Shown here one piece after another: positions 34-32,169 of a DNA stretch of 64,000 nt (positions within the stretch are counted from its first letter, which is position 1; each line of letters begins with the position of its first letter). The DNA is from Parietichytrium sp. I65-24A (lineage: Eukaryota > Sar > Bigyra > Thraustochytrida > Thraustochytriidae). The stretch spans positions 124,001 through 188,000 of the forward strand of contig BLSF01000068.1 in NCBI GenBank assembly GCA_012862575.1. Direction: 5' to 3'. The notes beneath the pieces were generated by a model that was not told where the DNA came from, made no database searches, and was given only the letters and a program-made list of their open reading frames with translations. Made by a program: the position numbers and the translations under genes.

Positions 34-2394
34 ATGGCCACTCTGGATGAGTGCTTAGAGGTGGTGCAGCAGGGGTCCGTGGCATTCGCGCTGTTCGCAG
101 CTGGAGCATTCTATCTTGCGGATCAAGCGAAAGGGTTGGCTCGCTCGTTAGGCATCGTTCCCTTGCGATTCGAATCATCCGGGAATGGCGAGATTCTGAT
201 CCCACAGCAGCAGCAGCAGGTTCAGGAGCAACAGCAACAGCAACAACAAGACAATGCCGATCGAGGCCGGAGACGAGTGCAAAAAATTGTCGTAAGATCT
301 GGAGCGCTGGTGGACAGCATCACGTTCTATTATGAGGGCGTTCCGAACGGTGTCACGTTTGGGGGGACCGGTGGAAATCCGCATCCGCCATTTGACCTCG
401 CTGATAATGAATGGGTAGTGGAGGTTCGCGGGCGCCGGGGCGCTTATATTGACCAAGTGCAATTTGTCACGAACCTTGGTCGCACATCCCCGGCGTATGG
501 CGGGAACGGAGGTGAGCAGTTCGCCTTTCGCACGGTTAATGGTGCTCCAATCGGGGGGGTGGATGTTATAGTGTCGATCAACGGGTGGATCCGATCAATA
601 CGCGGGGTCATCGAAGTAAGTAAAGTGAACATCTCTTCGCCAGAAACGCCACTATACATTCGCGAACGTGGGATTATTCGCGCCCACCAGCGAAGAGTAC
701 GGAGGCGCCTTCGATTTCTGCATTCCCTTGTCATCGCATACACATGCTTTCTAATGTTTGCGATGGGCGGCTTCGCGTTGGACATGCTTCGCGGGCCTGT
801 GCCTCTGGATTTTGACGACCTTTCCGCTTCTCCCGCTCGCGCTTTGGTCAGCATCCCAGCGAGCGCGGAAAAGCTCGCGGACAGCGTGAAGTTTTCGGAC
901 GGCCAAGAGTTGGTCCGCTGGATCATCTTAAACATTGGGGAGCCCACATCCATCACCAACGCGCAAGAAGATTTGCCCACGTCCAAGGTGGATAGAGGCC
1001 TCGAGGTCGTAGAAGCGTCCACCGTTGGAGTGTTGGTGAAGGAGATTGTGGAGCGCCAACCCGAAGCCCCCACATACCGCAGCCGGAAGAATGCGGCCCT
1101 GCGTACAGGAATCATTCGCAGACTCGACTTTAATACGCACGGGCTAGTTTTTGATGAGATCACAAACATATCTCCCAAATTTCGTTGGATGTGGTCGGGG
1201 CCAGCATTGGCCGATGATGACGACAGCACTGAAGAAAGCCGGCAAGGGAGAGGTGCTGGAACAAGTCGTCGCAGCCCTCGAATCCAGAAGGTCTATCCTC
1301 GATACTACGTTGACGAAACGTTTTCGCCCGTCATCTTCTACATTTGCTCTGGAGTGGTGCTTGTGGCTTTCCTTTACACCGCAAAAACGGAGTGGCGTCA
1401 ATCTACCGGGGTGGAAGACCCGGTCATCCAACGTTTTGAAATTGGGAATGAGGAAGGCTCCACTGACGAGCGAGCGCGCATCTTGGACGAGGAGGTTCTT
1501 GAAGAATCTACCCTCGTGCTGCCGTGGAGCTCGAGTGTAGTCGTTGTCACGCGAAACTGGCTGATCAAGACAAATTACCTCGGCCTGGATGCCATCGCAA
1601 TCAGTGACGCCAGACTCGTAGATCTCCGCGTCTCAGGCCGGTGGATCATGGGGGAGCTCGTCGAAATTGTTACGCTCCGGATTGAGAGTAGGCGATCGGT
1701 CACACAGACGGGGCACCACCGCCAAGCAAGGGCAACCTACTTTTTTGATGTGGCTCTCCCACGGATGCAGTTTGAACTATTACAGGCAAGCTTTATTGAT
1801 CGAGTGAACAAGCGTCAAGAGGAGTTGGTGAAAGACCACGAAAACCAGTTCCTTGGGCTCTTCAAAGACATGCTCTGCTCTCGCGTGGAAGCTGGGATCT
1901 CTTTCGACCCTGCCACAAATCACGACGAATGTCTGGGAGCTTGCGGGAGGGCCGCCTCGGTGCTGATCAATAAACGCTGCGATACCTGCCAAGAGCGCAA
2001 CTCGTGCTCTTGCGAGCCCCGCTGGTGCTATGACTGCCTCCTCCGGTGGTGGCTAACAAAGAACCGAACCCGAATCGAGATGTTGACCGCCGAAGATACC
2101 ATCGACCCAAGTTGGCAGGCGCGTTGTCCAACTTGTAGGGTTTACTTTTGCCTGAACGACATCGTCCCGAGAGCCGATCTGCCGCAGCTGCTAACCGCAG
2201 ATGTCGAAGAAGACGGCGGTGTCTCGAGCGACCCTATTCCTGAGGCCGGGCAGCAGGAAGCCGAGGTTGCGCAAGTGGAGCATGCTTCTGAATCTCTTGG
2301 TGCAGGTCAGGCTTCCAGCATTTCAGACCGAGAGCTCATGCGTCAGAGAGTCGCCGCGGCCGCGGAATTACGTCGCAGACTCGCACAGTCCTAA
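34..2394 (+). CDS. TMEM129: TMEM129-type membrane RING E3 ubiquitin ligase with inserted jacalin-like lectin domain
   Basis: 786 aa. The C-terminus (about residues 632-712) is an atypical Cys-rich RING with CxxC pairs ending in RCPTCRVYFC, as in the ER ligase TMEM129. Upstream, VVVVTRNWLIKT and the basic stretch before TM2 (RRRLRFLHSLVIAYT) also resemble TMEM129. Three membrane segments are visible: about 12-29, 230-250 and 430-449, matching the family's three-pass topology with a cytosolic RING. A Gln-rich linker (57-72) leads into a jacalin-like beta-prism domain at about 84-195: VVRSG..DSITF, GGTGG, E-x-x-V-x-G, FVTNLGR, YGGNGG. It lies in the TM1-TM2 loop, which is cytosolic if the family topology holds. 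The TM2-TM3 loop (about 180 aa) is much longer than in animal TMEM129. Known family role: ubiquitination in ER-associated degradation. Inference: the lectin domain recruits glycosylated substrates. The frame is open to the left window edge, so the true start could lie further upstream; the ATG at 34 is the first available. Confidence 0.85.
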   Translation: MATLDECLEVVQQGSVAFALFAAGAFYLADQAKGLARSLGIVPLRFESSGNGEILIPQQQQQVQEQQQQQQQDNADRGRRRVQKIVVRSGALVDSITFYYEGVPNGVTFGGTGGNPHPPFDLADNEWVVEVRGRRGAYIDQVQFVTNLGRTSPAYGGNGGEQFAFRTVNGAPIGGVDVIVSINGWIRSIRGVIEVSKVNISSPETPLYIRERGIIRAHQRRVRRRLRFLHSLVIAYTCFLMFAMGGFALDMLRGPVPLDFDDLSASPARALVSIPASAEKLADSVKFSDGQELVRWIILNIGEPTSITNAQEDLPTSKVDRGLEVVEASTVGVLVKEIVERQPEAPTYRSRKNAALRTGIIRRLDFNTHGLVFDEITNISPKFRWMWSGPALADDDDSTEESRQGRGAGTSRRSPRIQKVYPRYYVDETFSPVIFYICSGVVLVAFLYTAKTEWRQSTGVEDPVIQRFEIGNEEGSTDERARILDEEVLEESTLVLPWSSSVVVVTRNWLIKTNYLGLDAIAISDARLVDLRVSGRWIMGELVEIVTLRIESRRSVTQTGHHRQARATYFFDVALPRMQFELLQASFIDRVNKRQEELVKDHENQFLGLFKDMLCSRVEAGISFDPATNHDECLGACGRAASVLINKRCDTCQERNSCSCEPRWCYDCLLRWWLTKNRTRIEMLTAEDTIDPSWQARCPTCRVYFCLNDIVPRADLPQLLTADVEEDGGVSSDPIPEAGQQEAEVAQVEHASESLGAGQASSISDRELMRQRVAAAAELRRRLAQS

Positions 2395-2953: not shown

Positions 2954-4240
2954 TCACAGGGGAGAGGCCTCGCGGGACTCGCGAAGATCAGGGTGCTGCG
3001 GAGAGAGCCCCTCGCTCGCCAATTCAGCGATAGTCTCGCTTACCAGGTGCGCTGCCGCAATAACGTCGTCTGTGCAACCGGCTTCGCTGATTGTGTGCAT
3101 GTTCCTAATCGGGACACCAATGGAGGTTGCCGCGCAGTCAATGGACGATAAGACCCCTGCCATAGCGTCTGTTCCTGTGTCGCGCCCGACTACGTCGAGC
3201 TGGAGAGGAATCGAGCTTCGAGCGCAAGCCTTTTTCACCACACTATTCAAGTTTGGAGATACGATCGAGCCAACAGAGAGCGTTGGCCCGCGTCCCATAC
3301 CAATGTCCGGAAAGTTTTTCCCCGACACGCCAGGCGCAGCATTGTAGTCGTGGTTAACGTCAACAGCAAGGAGTGCATGGGGTTTGAACAAATTGGTGAG
3401 GACCCGACTTCCAAACCTGCCAATCTCTTCGTGCGTTGCAAAAGCGAAGAGAACGCGGACATTATTGAGCAGAGCAGGATCCTGGGCAGCCTTGCCAGCG
3501 ACCAAATGAGCGGCTTTGGCGGTGATAAAGCACCCAAGCCCATTGTCGAGGTACGCCCCTTGGAAGGTATTGCGGCCCACCCCGCGTCTAATCGGCCTGT
3601 CCATGATGATGCTGTCGCCGACACTGATTCCAAGAGTGCTGGTGACTTGATCTTTGCGTTTCTCGCCGTGGATCTGAAGGTCAATGTACAGCTGCTCTGG
3701 CTTGATCCCCTTGGTGCCACTTCTCAACGACGGCTCTGCAAAGTGAATCGCGCCGAGCGCTTCCACCGTGCCCCCTTTGATCGCGCTATAGCTTCCTGGA
3801 GCGTCGGGCCGCTCCGAGTAGATGACGACCTCATTCCCGAGCAGCGTCATCGGCAGATGGCTGTCGCTGTCAATGTACACTTTGCCATCGTCAGCGATCT
3901 TGCGCACTTGCATGCGAATCTTGTCCAGGTGGCCGACCACCATGCACGTCAGCTTCTCCGGGCCAGCATTCGGGTCGGTATCCAACACCATCCCCGCGCT
4001 GCCTCTGAGCCTGTGCGTCTTCCACTGCGTCTTGCCGATGAACTCCTCCAGCTCGCCCACCATGGCCTGCTCCAGCCCCACGGGCGACGGCGCCGCCAAC
4101 ACGCGCCTCATGCTCTCAAACTCCGCGTCTTCCATGCGCATTTGCCATGGAAGCTTGCTCTGCTTCTCCGCCGCATGGCAAAGCCCACGCGCCTGCGACC
4201 GCACCGCCGCTCTTACAACCTTGCCAACCTTGCCAAACAT
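2954..4240 (-). CDS. M42-family metallo-aminopeptidase
   Basis: 428 aa, ATG at 4240. It matches the M42 (glutamyl/deblocking aminopeptidase, FrvX-like) co-catalytic zinc peptidases. All expected metal and catalytic residues are visible: His104 (VVGHLDK), Asp232 (AYLDNG), Glu271-Glu272 (THEEIG), Asp294 (AVDVNHD) and His382 (IRNMHT). The family removes N-terminal residues from peptides, usually in large tetrahedral homo-oligomers. The first 25 residues (MFGKVGKVVRAAVRSQARGL) are basic, lack acidic residues and are rich in hydroxylated or small residues, so they may act as a mitochondrial or plastid leader; this is inference. M42 enzymes are mainly bacterial and archaeal, so a eukaryotic copy may be of prokaryotic origin. 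The gene converges on the ligase and diverges from the PWI gene, with a 9-bp tandem array just upstream of its ATG. Confidence 0.85.
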   Translation of the reverse strand: MFGKVGKVVRAAVRSQARGLCHAAEKQSKLPWQMRMEDAEFESMRRVLAAPSPVGLEQAMVGELEEFIGKTQWKTHRLRGSAGMVLDTDPNAGPEKLTCMVVGHLDKIRMQVRKIADDGKVYIDSDSHLPMTLLGNEVVIYSERPDAPGSYSAIKGGTVEALGAIHFAEPSLRSGTKGIKPEQLYIDLQIHGEKRKDQVTSTLGISVGDSIIMDRPIRRGVGRNTFQGAYLDNGLGCFITAKAAHLVAGKAAQDPALLNNVRVLFAFATHEEIGRFGSRVLTNLFKPHALLAVDVNHDYNAAPGVSGKNFPDIGMGRGPTLSVGSIVSPNLNSVVKKACARSSIPLQLDVVGRDTGTDAMAGVLSSIDCAATSIGVPIRNMHTISEAGCTDDVIAAAHLVSETIAELASEGLSPQHPDLRESREASPL

Positions 4241-4895: not shown

Positions 4896-5651
4896 ATGCA
4901 CTCACGGCAAGAGTTGGTCCGCGCCGGCCGGTTTCTTTCTGAGTCATTTGCATCTCTGCGGAGAATGTCGTCGGCGTCCAGTCAGCTGCACGGAGTCGGC
5001 GATGGCAAGGAGGAGATGGGACCTCGCGACAAGCAGGATGTGACGACCGTTCCTCGCGCACATGGAACTGGCGCGCAGGTGGTGGCGACGTGGGTGAAGA
5101 GAAAGGTCGTGGATCTCGTCGGCACGGACGATGATGTGCTCGCTGCTCTGATCGTGGGCCGTGCGACGATGTCGGGGATTCCGGAGAGTAGTGTTTCAAA
5201 TGATGCTTCCTTTCGAGGTTCTGGCTGCTTGGAAAACAAAGCAACTCTTACGAGCAGTGAACGCTGCTTGGATGCACGCGAGGTCGTGCTAGAACTTGCT
5301 CCTTTCCTGGGCGGAGAAGAGCCTGCCGCCAACTTCGTGGCCAGGCTATGTGAAGAGCTGTGGCGAGCTGAAGCAGGGCGTAGCGCAGTCGAGGCGGCAC
5401 CGAAAAGGTTGGCGCGTCGGCGGGAGCGAAGGATGAGATCTGGAAGGACACGGCGCAGGCTGGCGCGGCATCGCCGAACGAGATCGCGGAGTTCGTCGTC
5501 TTCACAAAGTGCTCTTTCGCGATCCAGCTCGAGCTCTGGGTGTGGGTCGCAAGGTTCAGAGTCGTCAGCGTTTGATCCGCGTCGCGGACCAGCTAGAATC
5601 AAGAGCTATAGAGTTGACGAAAACCACCGCCACAGTAAGCTTCAGCACTGA
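4896..5651 (+). CDS. PWI-like domain protein with RS-rich tail (putative splicing factor)
   Basis: 251 aa, ATG at 4896; Met24 is an alternative start. Residues about 61-158 follow the pattern of a PWI four-helix fold: an aliphatic residue before W-V-K-R-K (66-70), then DLVGTDDDVLAALIVGR, and later a helix ending F-V-A-R-L-C-E-E-L-W (147-156). PWI domains bind nucleic acid and occur in splicing proteins such as SRRM1 and RBM25. The remainder (about 170-220) is basic and then rich in Arg/Ser (TRSRSSSSSQ...), as in SR-related proteins. Together these suggest a nuclear pre-mRNA processing factor. The Pro of the name-giving PWI triplet is absent (ATW here), so the domain call is by pattern and needs a profile search. 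Confidence 0.6.
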   Translation: MHSRQELVRAGRFLSESFASLRRMSSASSQLHGVGDGKEEMGPRDKQDVTTVPRAHGTGAQVVATWVKRKVVDLVGTDDDVLAALIVGRATMSGIPESSVSNDASFRGSGCLENKATLTSSERCLDAREVVLELAPFLGGEEPAANFVARLCEELWRAEAGRSAVEAAPKRLARRRERRMRSGRTRRRLARHRRTRSRSSSSSQSALSRSSSSSGCGSQGSESSAFDPRRGPARIKSYRVDENHRHSKLQH

Positions 5652-5817
5652 AGCGCGATAGCTGGGCTGCGTGATGGTGAATTAGTGCAGAACCCCTTCC
5701 GTTCTGCCGTTCTGCCGTTCTTAATTTTTCACCTCGGCATCTTGTAAATGTAGCTCGTGTGCCAATCCACTTGCATTATGTGAACTCTGCTTTCACTTGC
5801 AATATTATGCAGCAAGC

Positions 5818-7485
5818 TTAAGCGTTGAACGAGTCCCCGATGCCGTCGGACTCGCTGTCGACGGCCGCTCCTTTGGTAAACAAGCCATCTTCGGAGTTTG
5901 ACTCGGACCCGACGTCCTCGCCGCTTGAGCTGTCAGAGTCATCTCCTTTATCATCACTATCCTGGTCGTCGTCATCACCAACATCATCATCACCTTGAGC
6001 GTCTTCAGAAGCAATCTCCTTCAAGATCCGATCTAGTTTGCCTTGAATCTGACCCTTGAATATTTTGCTAATAGTTGCTGATCCTTCTGGCGTCTCTAGT
6101 CTGGCGAGTTGATCCTTCAACAAAGCTATCAAATCGGCGTTCTTGGCGCGGTTCCGAGCAATCTCTACTTCCAAATGCTCCCACAAGAACTCCATGGGCG
6201 AGAGATCTGAGTAGTGAGGAGGGACAAGTAGAACTTTGTGTCCAGCCTCTTCCGCGAGCTGCACCACTTGACCCTTTACATTTTCAGCAACCCATTTTTG
6301 CATCGCAACTTTGGCTTCACTAAGAGAGGCGTTCTGTGCTAGTTGAGCCCCTCTGCTCTGAAGAAACGCAATCATTTCCTCCCTGCCCAATTTGACCCCG
6401 GCCAGTGCCTCTGGGGATTTTGCGAGGTGATATTTTGCAGCGTCCATGATAATGAGTGACGGTCCTTGCAAGCTTGGAAGCAAATTAGATTTCCACCAAC
6501 TTGCAAAACTAGCCCCAGTAAAATTCTTGTGAAGATCATCTGCGCTCTTTGTTTTCTTCTGTGCCTTGAAGACCATCACGGAGCCAGGAACAACCCCATG
6601 CAGCGAGTGGGTATCGTCTTTGATGCGTTGCACTGCGGCGATGACGCAGTACCCCTGAGCTTTGGCAGATTCTCTTCCCCTTTTCGGTGCTATTCCGACT
6701 CCCAAGTTACGAACGAGGTGTTCGTCCATATACGCCTCGTCGAGATAGACCTCATGCAAGCGGGAAACGCTTGGCTGATTGCGGTTATCCATGAGAATGC
6801 GGACGTACGCATCTCTACGAGCGACAATTGTCTCTTTGATATCGATGACTCCTCCCTTACGCCTCTGAAACCCGCCACGGAGGAGGAATCTCTGCGTGGC
6901 TCGTATTGCAGCCTGGTGCTGCTTGAGCGGGATGACATTCCCCGGGCCAATATCGACTTGAAGGATCTCCTTATCAATTAGGAACTCCATGACCTGCGTG
7001 GCTGTGGCGCGTTCGTTCTCAATCTGCCTCTCTCTAACAAAGTCCCGCACCATATAATATACATTCTTCGTGTGCGGCACTCTGGCCCGTTTCCGCTCGC
7101 GATTTCCGCGGTCTGTAAGAACTTCGAGGGACTCTTCAGCAGCTGTGCCGCCTTCTCCAATTGCATCAGTCCAAGCCTTGACCACCTTGCCCACCACACG
7201 ATTCGATCTTCCCAAGAGCCGGGCCGTCACATCATGTGCTTTCAGTGGCTCCTTCTTGCCCGTTCTCTGCTCCTTCTCAAGTCCTTCGCGGAGAACGCCA
7301 AAGTACACTCGCAGCACAGCAATGCGATCGTCTCTCGTCAAGACATGCCTGCCTCGTGCTTTCTCCAGCGCTCGAATCTGCTGGGCCACCGCGTCCAAGT
7401 TGCCCGATATGCGCTGCTTGGGAGGCTTCTCATCGCCCCGTCTGCGCTTCCCGCCCGCTTTTTGCTCCGAGGAGCTGCTGCTCAT
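5818..7485 (-). CDS. DDE (Tc1/mariner-IS630 superfamily) transposase, possibly domesticated
   Basis: 555 aa from the ATG at 7485; the frame extends a little upstream without an ATG. It has a basic N-terminus with a probable DNA-binding helical region. The catalytic core shows Asp249 (VYLDEAYMDEH), Asp348 (LIIMDAAKYHL) and Glu432 (HYSDLSPMEFLWEHLE), the three DDE positions in the Tc1/mariner-IS630 style. The second Asp and the Glu are 84 positions apart instead of the classic 34-39. The extra segment (LGREEMIAFLQSRGAQL...) looks like a SAP-type helix pair, as in some long-spacer lineages. The triad is intact and the frame unbroken. The C-terminus is a very acidic Ser/Asp/Glu tail (about 500-555). 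No terminal inverted repeats were found by eye in 5652-5817 or 7486-7980, so an active element is not demonstrated. The gene is divergent from the orphan at 7981. Confidence 0.8.
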   Translation of the reverse strand: MSSSSSEQKAGGKRRRGDEKPPKQRISGNLDAVAQQIRALEKARGRHVLTRDDRIAVLRVYFGVLREGLEKEQRTGKKEPLKAHDVTARLLGRSNRVVGKVVKAWTDAIGEGGTAAEESLEVLTDRGNRERKRARVPHTKNVYYMVRDFVRERQIENERATATQVMEFLIDKEILQVDIGPGNVIPLKQHQAAIRATQRFLLRGGFQRRKGGVIDIKETIVARRDAYVRILMDNRNQPSVSRLHEVYLDEAYMDEHLVRNLGVGIAPKRGRESAKAQGYCVIAAVQRIKDDTHSLHGVVPGSVMVFKAQKKTKSADDLHKNFTGASFASWWKSNLLPSLQGPSLIIMDAAKYHLAKSPEALAGVKLGREEMIAFLQSRGAQLAQNASLSEAKVAMQKWVAENVKGQVVQLAEEAGHKVLLVPPHYSDLSPMEFLWEHLEVEIARNRAKNADLIALLKDQLARLETPEGSATISKIFKGQIQGKLDRILKEIASEDAQGDDDVGDDDDQDSDDKGDDSDSSSGEDVGSESNSEDGLFTKGAAVDSESDGIGDSFNA

Positions 7486-30717: not shown

Positions 30718-32169
30718 ATGATGAAAGCTGTGCCGCTGGGCGAGCGCAATGGCGCAGAGCTACGTGGCAAGACCAACGAGCTGTCAAAACTGAACGGAGA
30801 CAGCGAAAACATTAGATTGGAGAATATTGGGTACGGCAAGAGCCCCACCAGCAAGAGGGGTCTCTCGAGAAGGGCCGTGCGAGGCGGCAAGATCGGCGGA
30901 GGGCTCTCTAGAACACCTAAGGGGCGCGCAGAGTCTGGCGACGAAGGGAAATATGTAGTTACTTACGAAGAAAAGGAAGACCTTTATTTGGATAAGAACG
31001 GCGGAAGTGGCCTGCGGGAACGCAAGAAGGTAGGCCCCCTGCAGCAAAAGATCCCGAGCGATCTCAGGACGGAGGCGGAGCAGGACGACTTGGCAGCGGT
31101 GGACCGGTTATTAGACTCAGACACCGAGCCGTCACCAGTTCATGCCAAACAGAAGAAGAGGTCGTCCAGAAGTAGATCGCCCAGCCCGAGGAGCAAAGAG
31201 ACCACATCAGCAACAGCAGACCTTGAAACGCACACACACTTAGAGCCACAAACCCCCCAATCAAAGACCGTTGCAACACGCTCAATCGCGTTTGTTATCT
31301 TATTTGGAGCGCTTGCTTTGGTCGGAGCAGCTTTGCTCAAGATGGGTCCGCGATACGAAATGCCGTCTTCCTCAAGCAAACCTTTTTTCCATTCCGTGCG
31401 AATCGGAGAGCCTGTGACTTTCGAGATTGACGCGGCAGGCGAACCGGCACCACGCTTTCAGTGGCGTCTGAACGGCGTCGATATCCCGAGTGCCACCAGT
31501 CGCAAGATGGTCATCGAGTCCGCGGGGCTCGACGATAGTGGCACATACACATGCATGGTCGAGAACCAGGCAGGCAGGTTTGTCTGGGAGGAAGGTTACG
31601 TAAACGTTCTCGCAAAAACCATTGCTGAGACCGGAAACGTCGAGGAAAAGTCTCACGTTGGGGAGGGCGAGCCGCTAAATTCGAGCGGTGATTCCGAGCA
31701 AGTGAAGAATGCTCGCATGTGCTTGCTCAAGCGCGCACCAGGCCCAGTCCGCCGCTCCGCGTCTGTTGACGGTGGCGCGGCAGTGATCGCAGCTGGCGAG
31801 TCCGCCGGCTACCTTGACTGCTTTCAGGCACTTCGAAGACTGGTAGGGCGCGGATCCCAATTGGACCCGAGGGCTAGACAAAAGCAACTCCGAGCCCTGG
31901 ACCTTTTGCGTTCTATGCACGGAACGTCCACCCAACGTTCCTCGCTTGTGAATGTGGTCAGTGCCATGAACGATTTGGCCCAAGCAAAGTTAGACAACCA
32001 GCCCATGGCTGCTCTTGAGGGCCTCCTGTCCAAAGCTGTGTTTGAGGCTGGCGTGTTTTGCGCCAGCACTCCGCAATGTGGAGAATCTGTCACCGGTGGC
32101 GCTCGAGATCGTATTATCAGCCTCGTTATGAACGCCCTCGCAGGCATGGACTCCGACCAACTGCTGTAG
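30718..32169 (+). CDS. Type II membrane protein with an Ig-like (I-set) domain
   Basis: 483 aa from the ATG at 30718, which has a good context (ACCATGATG). Residues 1-185 are basic and Ser-rich with RS-like patches (KKRSSRSRSPSPRS) and lack a signal peptide. About 189-207 (SIAFVILFGALALVGAALL) is one membrane segment. About 224-298 is an Ig-like fold: IGEPVTFEIDAAGEPAPRFQW (Trp249), then LDDSGTYTCMVENQAG with the F-strand D-x-G-x-Y-x-C motif (Cys279). The usual B-strand Cys is Ile237, so the intradomain disulfide is missing. The final about 185 residues are helical with scattered Cys and unknown function. Signal-anchor topology would put the Ig domain outside or in the lumen; this is inferred. 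Ig domains usually mediate protein-protein adhesion or recognition. Confidence 0.8.
   Translation: MMKAVPLGERNGAELRGKTNELSKLNGDSENIRLENIGYGKSPTSKRGLSRRAVRGGKIGGGLSRTPKGRAESGDEGKYVVTYEEKEDLYLDKNGGSGLRERKKVGPLQQKIPSDLRTEAEQDDLAAVDRLLDSDTEPSPVHAKQKKRSSRSRSPSPRSKETTSATADLETHTHLEPQTPQSKTVATRSIAFVILFGALALVGAALLKMGPRYEMPSSSSKPFFHSVRIGEPVTFEIDAAGEPAPRFQWRLNGVDIPSATSRKMVIESAGLDDSGTYTCMVENQAGRFVWEEGYVNVLAKTIAETGNVEEKSHVGEGEPLNSSGDSEQVKNARMCLLKRAPGPVRRSASVDGGAAVIAAGESAGYLDCFQALRRLVGRGSQLDPRARQKQLRALDLLRSMHGTSTQRSSLVNVVSAMNDLAQAKLDNQPMAALEGLLSKAVFEAGVFCASTPQCGESVTGGARDRIISLVMNALAGMDSDQLL

Follow-up and report, generated by a model that had tools for sequence, protein, structure and literature searches.

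Cytosolic reading of sugars by ubiquitin ligases has been described in mammals, for SCF-Fbs1/Fbs2, and in plants, for F-box/Nictaba proteins (PMC6389600, PMC5485960). In the account cited, SCF-Fbs1/Fbs2 (FBXO2/FBXO6) are multi-subunit ligases that bind the innermost part of the glycan and couple the reading of N-glycans on ERAD substrates to their ubiquitination (PMC6389600). A few F-box/jacalin proteins have also been named in Arabidopsis and soybean (PMC5485960).

Two further systems are relevant for the locus described here. According to published predictions, human TMEM129 is a 362-residue protein of Nexo-Ccyto topology with transmembrane (TM) segments at residues 6-26, 56-76 and 95-115, a cytosolic loop 1 of 28 residues and a lumenal loop 2 of 17 residues (PMC5127023). 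Its RING is of the C4C4 type, which is conserved in orthologs, and the protein occurs in complexes with UBE2J2 and Derlin-1 (PMC4024746). It has been studied in the degradation of HLA class I driven by a viral protein (PMC5127023, PMC4024746). The second system is griffithsin, a mannose-binding lectin from a red alga that contacts mannose through Ser27, Tyr28, Asp30 and Gly44 at site I, through Asp67, Tyr68, Asp70 and Gly90 at site II and through Asp109, Tyr110 and Asp112 at site III (PMC6723950). Its ligands are mannose, glucose and GlcNAc, and single replacement of Asp30, Asp70 or Asp112 partly inhibits its binding to gp120, which is nearly abolished when all three are replaced (PMC6835697). 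Griffithsin is a domain-swapped dimer (PMC6723950, PMC6835697).

Architecture of the Gene

The window is the whole stretch of DNA that was analysed, 64,000 nucleotides of a contig of the thraustochytrid Parietichytrium sp. I65-24A. Near its start we find a gene that almost certainly joins a jacalin-type lectin domain to a TMEM129-type ligase, judging from its predicted product (Table 1). The reading frame comprises 786 codons with no internal stops, and window position 34 is its first ATG; the frame itself starts 18 bases upstream of window base 1 (L008:5884).

A Pfam scan of the fusion protein (max_evalue 1) found two families, and no F-box family was among them. Jacalin (PF01419) is matched over profile positions 11-122 of 136 (E = 2.5e-13, 51.1 bits, curated cut-off 22), and Tmpp129 (PF10272) over positions 78-347 of 349 (E = 5.4e-25, 89 bits, curated cut-off 27). 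Both families are thus above cut-off in one frame, in agreement with the preliminary description, which had read a single polypeptide with a jacalin-type domain and a TMEM129-like part from the letters and had proposed comparison with these two profiles. The GGTGG, FVTNLGR and YGGNGG motifs and the Gln-rich linker that it listed are present as well.

Table 1. Features of the fusion gene, in window coordinates and residues of the predicted protein.
Feature	Residues	Window position	Strand	Basis
Jacalin-TMEM129 fusion, single open frame, 786 aa		34..2394	+	
Putative TM1 / signal anchor, marginal hydropathy	8-29	55..120	+	
Gln-rich linker, directly N-terminal to the lectin domain	58-72	205..249	+	
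Jacalin-type (griffithsin-like) lectin domain, Pfam match	74-176	253..561	+	Profiles
GALVD, equivalent of GxxxD of griffithsin CBS I; Tyr to Leu	90-94	301..315	+	
GGTGG loop, equivalent of griffithsin Gly44 (CBS I)	110-114	361..375	+	
GAYID, equivalent of GxxxD of griffithsin CBS II; Tyr and Asp70 kept, Asp67 to Ala	136-140	439..453	+	
GGNGG loop, equivalent of griffithsin Gly90 (CBS II)	156-160	499..513	+	
Basic stretch before TM2, 7 K/R, 0 D/E	214-228	673..717	+	
TM2	231-249	724..780	+	
TM2-TM3 loop, predicted lumenal, no Pfam family	250-428	781..1317	+	
TM3	429-450	1318..1383	+	
Tmpp129 (TMEM129) homology	433-711	1330..2166	+	Pfam
Cys-rich RING region, 11 Cys, 0 His	633-706	1930..2151	+	

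The Lectin Domain

The lectin domain probably extends beyond the Pfam match to about residue 198, and its homology to griffithsin points to a beta-prism I fold. Griffithsin is the top solved-structure match of the window protein (E = 9.7e-11), and with a profile of six related domains it comes second (E = 1.2e-18) to a Parkia lectin (E = 1.4e-19). As a control, an HMM independent of the window was built from three bacterial jacalin-type domains (two of locus L034 and one of L035); it gives the window protein 61.8 bits, whereas none of 2000 shuffles of this protein scores above 6.7 bits.

The site residues were mapped on the printed griffithsin alignment, in which the chain numbering was taken as that of the papers plus one. 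At site I the Asp and the loop Gly are kept, with Leu in place of Tyr and Ala in place of Ser, while at site II the Tyr, Asp70 and the loop Gly are kept and Asp67 is replaced by Ala. The alignment stops short of site III, which was judged by a pattern count: GG first occurs at residue 110, and no further GxxxD follows the GAYID motif as far as TM2. Lacking the first GG loop and the final GxxxD, the domain keeps two of the three griffithsin-type sites and falls short of the full pattern of a GxxxD and a GG loop at three sites. Sugar binding is plausible since the Asp and the loop Gly are kept at those two sites, and the affinity may be low because the third site is missing and the first kept site has Leu instead of Tyr.

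Jacalin matches are found at three places in the genome (42.5 Mb, 172 contigs), each on a different contig, and in each of the three aligned domains the first and second positions are occupied by GxxxD. The domains of the other two loci, L006 and L007, also have no GG before the first GxxxD within the aligned stretch, and that of L006 has no last GxxxD either. In L007 there are extra GxxxD strings, one of them in its last third, which the alignment does not put at site III, so the loss of this site is uncertain there. From these comparisons, the two-site form looks common to at least L006, rather than a decay of the fusion copy. The bacterial domains (three, from two loci) have three GGxGG loops and GxxxD at each of the three positions.

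The L006 gene (4743-7166, +, contig C62) encodes 807 residues with an N-terminal jacalin domain, no signal peptide evident by eye and a long Leu-rich 'LLRLLL..GEPS' repeat tract, Jacalin being its sole Pfam family above cut-off. The L007 gene (3-4040, -) encodes at least 1300 residues with a jacalin domain, Ala-Pro-Thr repeats and, by eye, an apparent signal peptide; its product is probably secreted or exposed at the cell surface. Outside this genome, scans of viral contigs confirmed no relative, either of the complete protein or of its lectin part, and 2 of the 79 prokaryotic stretches that match a search pattern encode a relative. These are a two-domain lectin of a Terriglobia MAG (L034, 2587-3867) and a lectin of Marinibactrum halimedae (L035, 2575-3330), both with complete three-site griffithsin-like motifs and secreted-looking by eye; no ligase domain was noticed in either of them.

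Orientation in the Membrane

Three TM segments had been proposed, with the lectin between the first and the second. Hydropathy was judged on two scales, one of which is home-made and only roughly approximate. It shows TM2 and TM3 clearly (peaks of 1.93 and 2.13) and TM1 marginally (1.34). The order of the segments is as proposed; homology of TM1 and TM2 to those of TMEM129 was not detected, and 'between TM1 and TM2' therefore rests on segment order. The Tmpp129 profile positions that cover TM1-TM2 (1-77) are unmatched in residues 1-69 or 193-279, which are short and poorly conserved pieces. Searched alone, residues 1-69, 193-279 and 253-435 gave no Pfam match at max_evalue 10, a search of little power for such short pieces, in which the HMMER filters remove most matches above about 0.1 in spite of that threshold. 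It is likely that the lectin interrupts the ancestral loop 1, as opposed to being part of an N-terminus that was remodelled. The present loop 1 has about 200 residues. Loop 2 has about 180 residues, compared with 17 in human TMEM129 (PMC5127023), so the expansion noticed at the outset is real.

The counts of K/R versus D/E are 0/3 at the N-terminus, 3/1 in residues 33-47, 7/0 just before TM2 and 1/4 at the start of loop 2, so that the majority of the flanks agree with Nexo-Ccyto. In the flank after TM3 (residues 451-465) they are 2 versus 3, which does not support the Nexo-Ccyto topology. There is also a NISS sequon at residue 199.

Two clear TM segments separate the lectin from the RING, and thus both lie on one side of the membrane, whether TM1 is inserted or not. 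Ubiquitination is not expected in the ER lumen, and a RING has to be cytosolic in order to work. Hence, if TM2 and TM3 are real and the ligase works, lectin and RING should both be cytosolic. The charges around TM2 and the topology of human TMEM129 also support a cytosolic lectin. As evidence on topology, we think that this parity argument is stronger than TM1.

Ligase Region and Its Possible Partners

The Cys-rich region is consistent with a C4C4 RING, the eight putative zinc ligands of which were assigned by eye. No solved-structure match was obtained for the C-terminal 364 residues at max_evalue 10. In a six-frame search of the assembly (42.5 Mb, 172 contigs), the fusion gives the one Tmpp129 match above cut-off, so it is the only TMEM129 member seen and not a spare copy, as far as the completeness of the assembly and the reach of a six-frame search permit. 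A second, sub-threshold match on contig C4 (E = 0.16) comes from a frame that contains five hydrophobic segments, and it was treated as chance.

The genome encodes STT3 (E = 8.7e-44, the match being in two pieces), ALG3 (E = 4.5e-121), two Derlins (E = 2.0e-59 and 1.0e-45) and a peptide:N-glycanase-like protein with a GRCGEWAN motif, to which solved peptide N-glycanases are matched at 2.1e-54. Judging from these genes, the organism should make mannose-extended N-glycans, have components for dislocation and be able to deglycosylate proteins in the cytosol. On this reading, the substrate that a glycan-reading ligase needs should exist.

Among the 20 of 32 UQ_con matches that were examined, no membrane-anchored E2 of the UBE2J2 kind was seen, introns being able to hide an anchor: none of the 20 open frames has a hydrophobic segment at its C-terminal end, and in two there is one inside the UBC domain. 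This counts, if weakly, against the mechanism that is proposed below. The Fbs-type FBA domain had no match in the genome, nor in any of 14 control genomes, so its absence is not established.

Possible Function

The preliminary description went further and proposed that one protein recognises the glycans of retrotranslocated substrates and also ubiquitinates these substrates, a dual role that the architecture may permit. In the mechanism that we prefer, an ER-membrane ligase of the TMEM129 family would read mannose-type glycans via a cytosolic two-site lectin. Lectin and RING would both be placed on the cytosolic side of the ER membrane, where the lectin would engage the mannose-type N-glycans of proteins leaving the dislocation channel, ahead of their removal by peptide:N-glycanase. 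The bound substrate would be kept beside the RING and its E2 and in this way become ubiquitinated. The fusion would then correspond to the glycan-reading SCF-Fbs ligases, but as one chain that is anchored in the membrane. To this mechanism as a whole we assign a probability of roughly 0.5. More tentatively, and with somewhat less confidence, we suggest that the N-glycan itself could be the degradation signal at the membrane, by a handover from lectin to RING within the same molecule that competes with peptide:N-glycanase and dispenses with SCF. It speaks against mannose reading that the mammalian cytosolic F-box sugar readers, as described, bind the innermost part of the N-glycan and not the outer mannose (PMC6389600).

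The main alternative is that the jacalin domain is a module for protein-protein contact or self-association, which tethers the ligase to a partner or drives its oligomerisation and does not serve to bind sugar. The loss of one of the three sugar sites and the lack of the stacking Tyr at another would suit such a role, and griffithsin itself is a domain-swapped dimer (PMC6723950, PMC6835697). Nevertheless, the domain of the fusion retains both remaining pairs of GxxxD and GG loop, and the jacalin genes of L006 and L007 likewise retain GxxxD at both positions; we think this alternative unlikely, if worth keeping in view. A sugar-reading role of another kind, in which the lectin detects sugars from damaged endomembranes or engulfed microbes, as Fbs3 does or galectin-3 together with TRIM16, has precedent in cytosolic partnerships of lectin and ligase (PMC6389600) and fits with the ligand range of griffithsin, which covers mannose, glucose and GlcNAc (PMC6835697). 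It seems improbable to us, since the relationship to TMEM129 suggests a place at the ER dislocation complex (PMC4024746) and since a membrane anchor is predicted for the fusion protein.

Two more objections concern the gene and its orientation, and we give very little credit to either. An artefact of the gene model or the assembly, with two genes in place of one or with the lectin segment spliced out, could be imagined in a genome where introns are apparent in other genes, as in the STT3 match that is split in two pieces. Against it stand the 786 codons in one stop-free frame, a third-position GC that is alike between segments of the gene (0.611, 0.549, 0.596 and 0.621) and the strongly conserved domain that, by the shuffle-controlled HMM, sits in that same frame. 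The other objection is that the lectin might face the ER lumen and select substrates there like the lumenal ERAD lectins, in which case the weak TM1 would be read as a cleaved signal; the sequon at residue 199 and the non-basic flank after TM3 would agree with it. With TM2 and TM3 real, however, the RING would be lumenal too, where ubiquitination is not expected, and the flank of TM2 on the lectin side has seven basic residues and no acidic one. In human TMEM129, moreover, loop 1 is cytosolic (PMC5127023).

Compared with the known systems, the fusion shares with TMEM129 the Tmpp129 region, the Cys-rich RING towards the C-terminus, the preceding TM segments and probably the Nexo-Ccyto topology, but it has 786 residues instead of the 362 of the human protein, a lectin in loop 1 and a loop 2 of about 180 residues where human TMEM129 has short loops. 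With griffithsin and the mannose-type jacalin-related lectins it has in common the jacalin profile and two sites with GxxxD and a GG loop, whereas griffithsin is a free lectin with three sites and the fusion carries its two-site domain, preceded by a Gln-rich stretch, inside a membrane ligase. The plant F-box/jacalin and F-box/Nictaba proteins likewise combine a lectin with a part of a ubiquitin ligase and are thought to act on cytosolic sugars, but they are substrate adaptors of SCF, in contrast to a membrane-spanning RING protein. The proposed principle is the same as that of SCF-Fbs1/Fbs2, which are multi-subunit ligases, unlike the single chain of the fusion. The lectin fold of Fbs1/Fbs2 differs from the one expected for the fusion's lectin. 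We regard the gene as a TMEM129-type ligase whose mode of action may resemble that of the lectin-type SCF ligases, without its being one of them.

The architecture had been put forward as one without known example. This holds for the presence of a lectin within a RING ligase that spans the membrane, of which no description was found in the openly licensed literature, and does not hold for the principle of joining lectin and ligase, for which the F-box lectins are precedents. The natural substrates of TMEM129 in normal cells are poorly characterised. As a domain fusion, its joining to a lectin in this gene hints that the TMEM129 ligase handles glycoproteins on the cytosolic side. If the preferred mechanism is true, sugar reading would seem to have been tied to ubiquitination in an ER-membrane RING ligase, independently of the F-box lectins found in plants and in animals.

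Genomic Surroundings

Shortly upstream of the start of the fusion gene (L008 5648-5866), a 43-base unit is repeated in tandem in 5.1 copies. The adjoining gene (window 2957-4240, -) encodes what we take by eye to be an M42-type aminopeptidase-like protein. A Pfam scan that covered 10 of the 20 listed frames of the window found a DDE_3 transposase-like frame (5821-7485, -), with E = 1.1e-6 and 29 bits barely above the cut-off of 28.6, and an immunoglobulin-type domain (30718-32166, +; best E = 1.4e-10), which is unexpected in a protist.

Beside the secreted-looking jacalin gene of L007, on contig C134, there are overlapping frames at 5370-7280 and 5450-6088 (+), which we assume by eye to be TnpB-like and serine-recombinase-like and to form an IS607-like element. 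The GC content there is 0.444, below the 0.48-0.58 of the genome loci on other contigs, and this stretch could be mobile or related to giant viruses.
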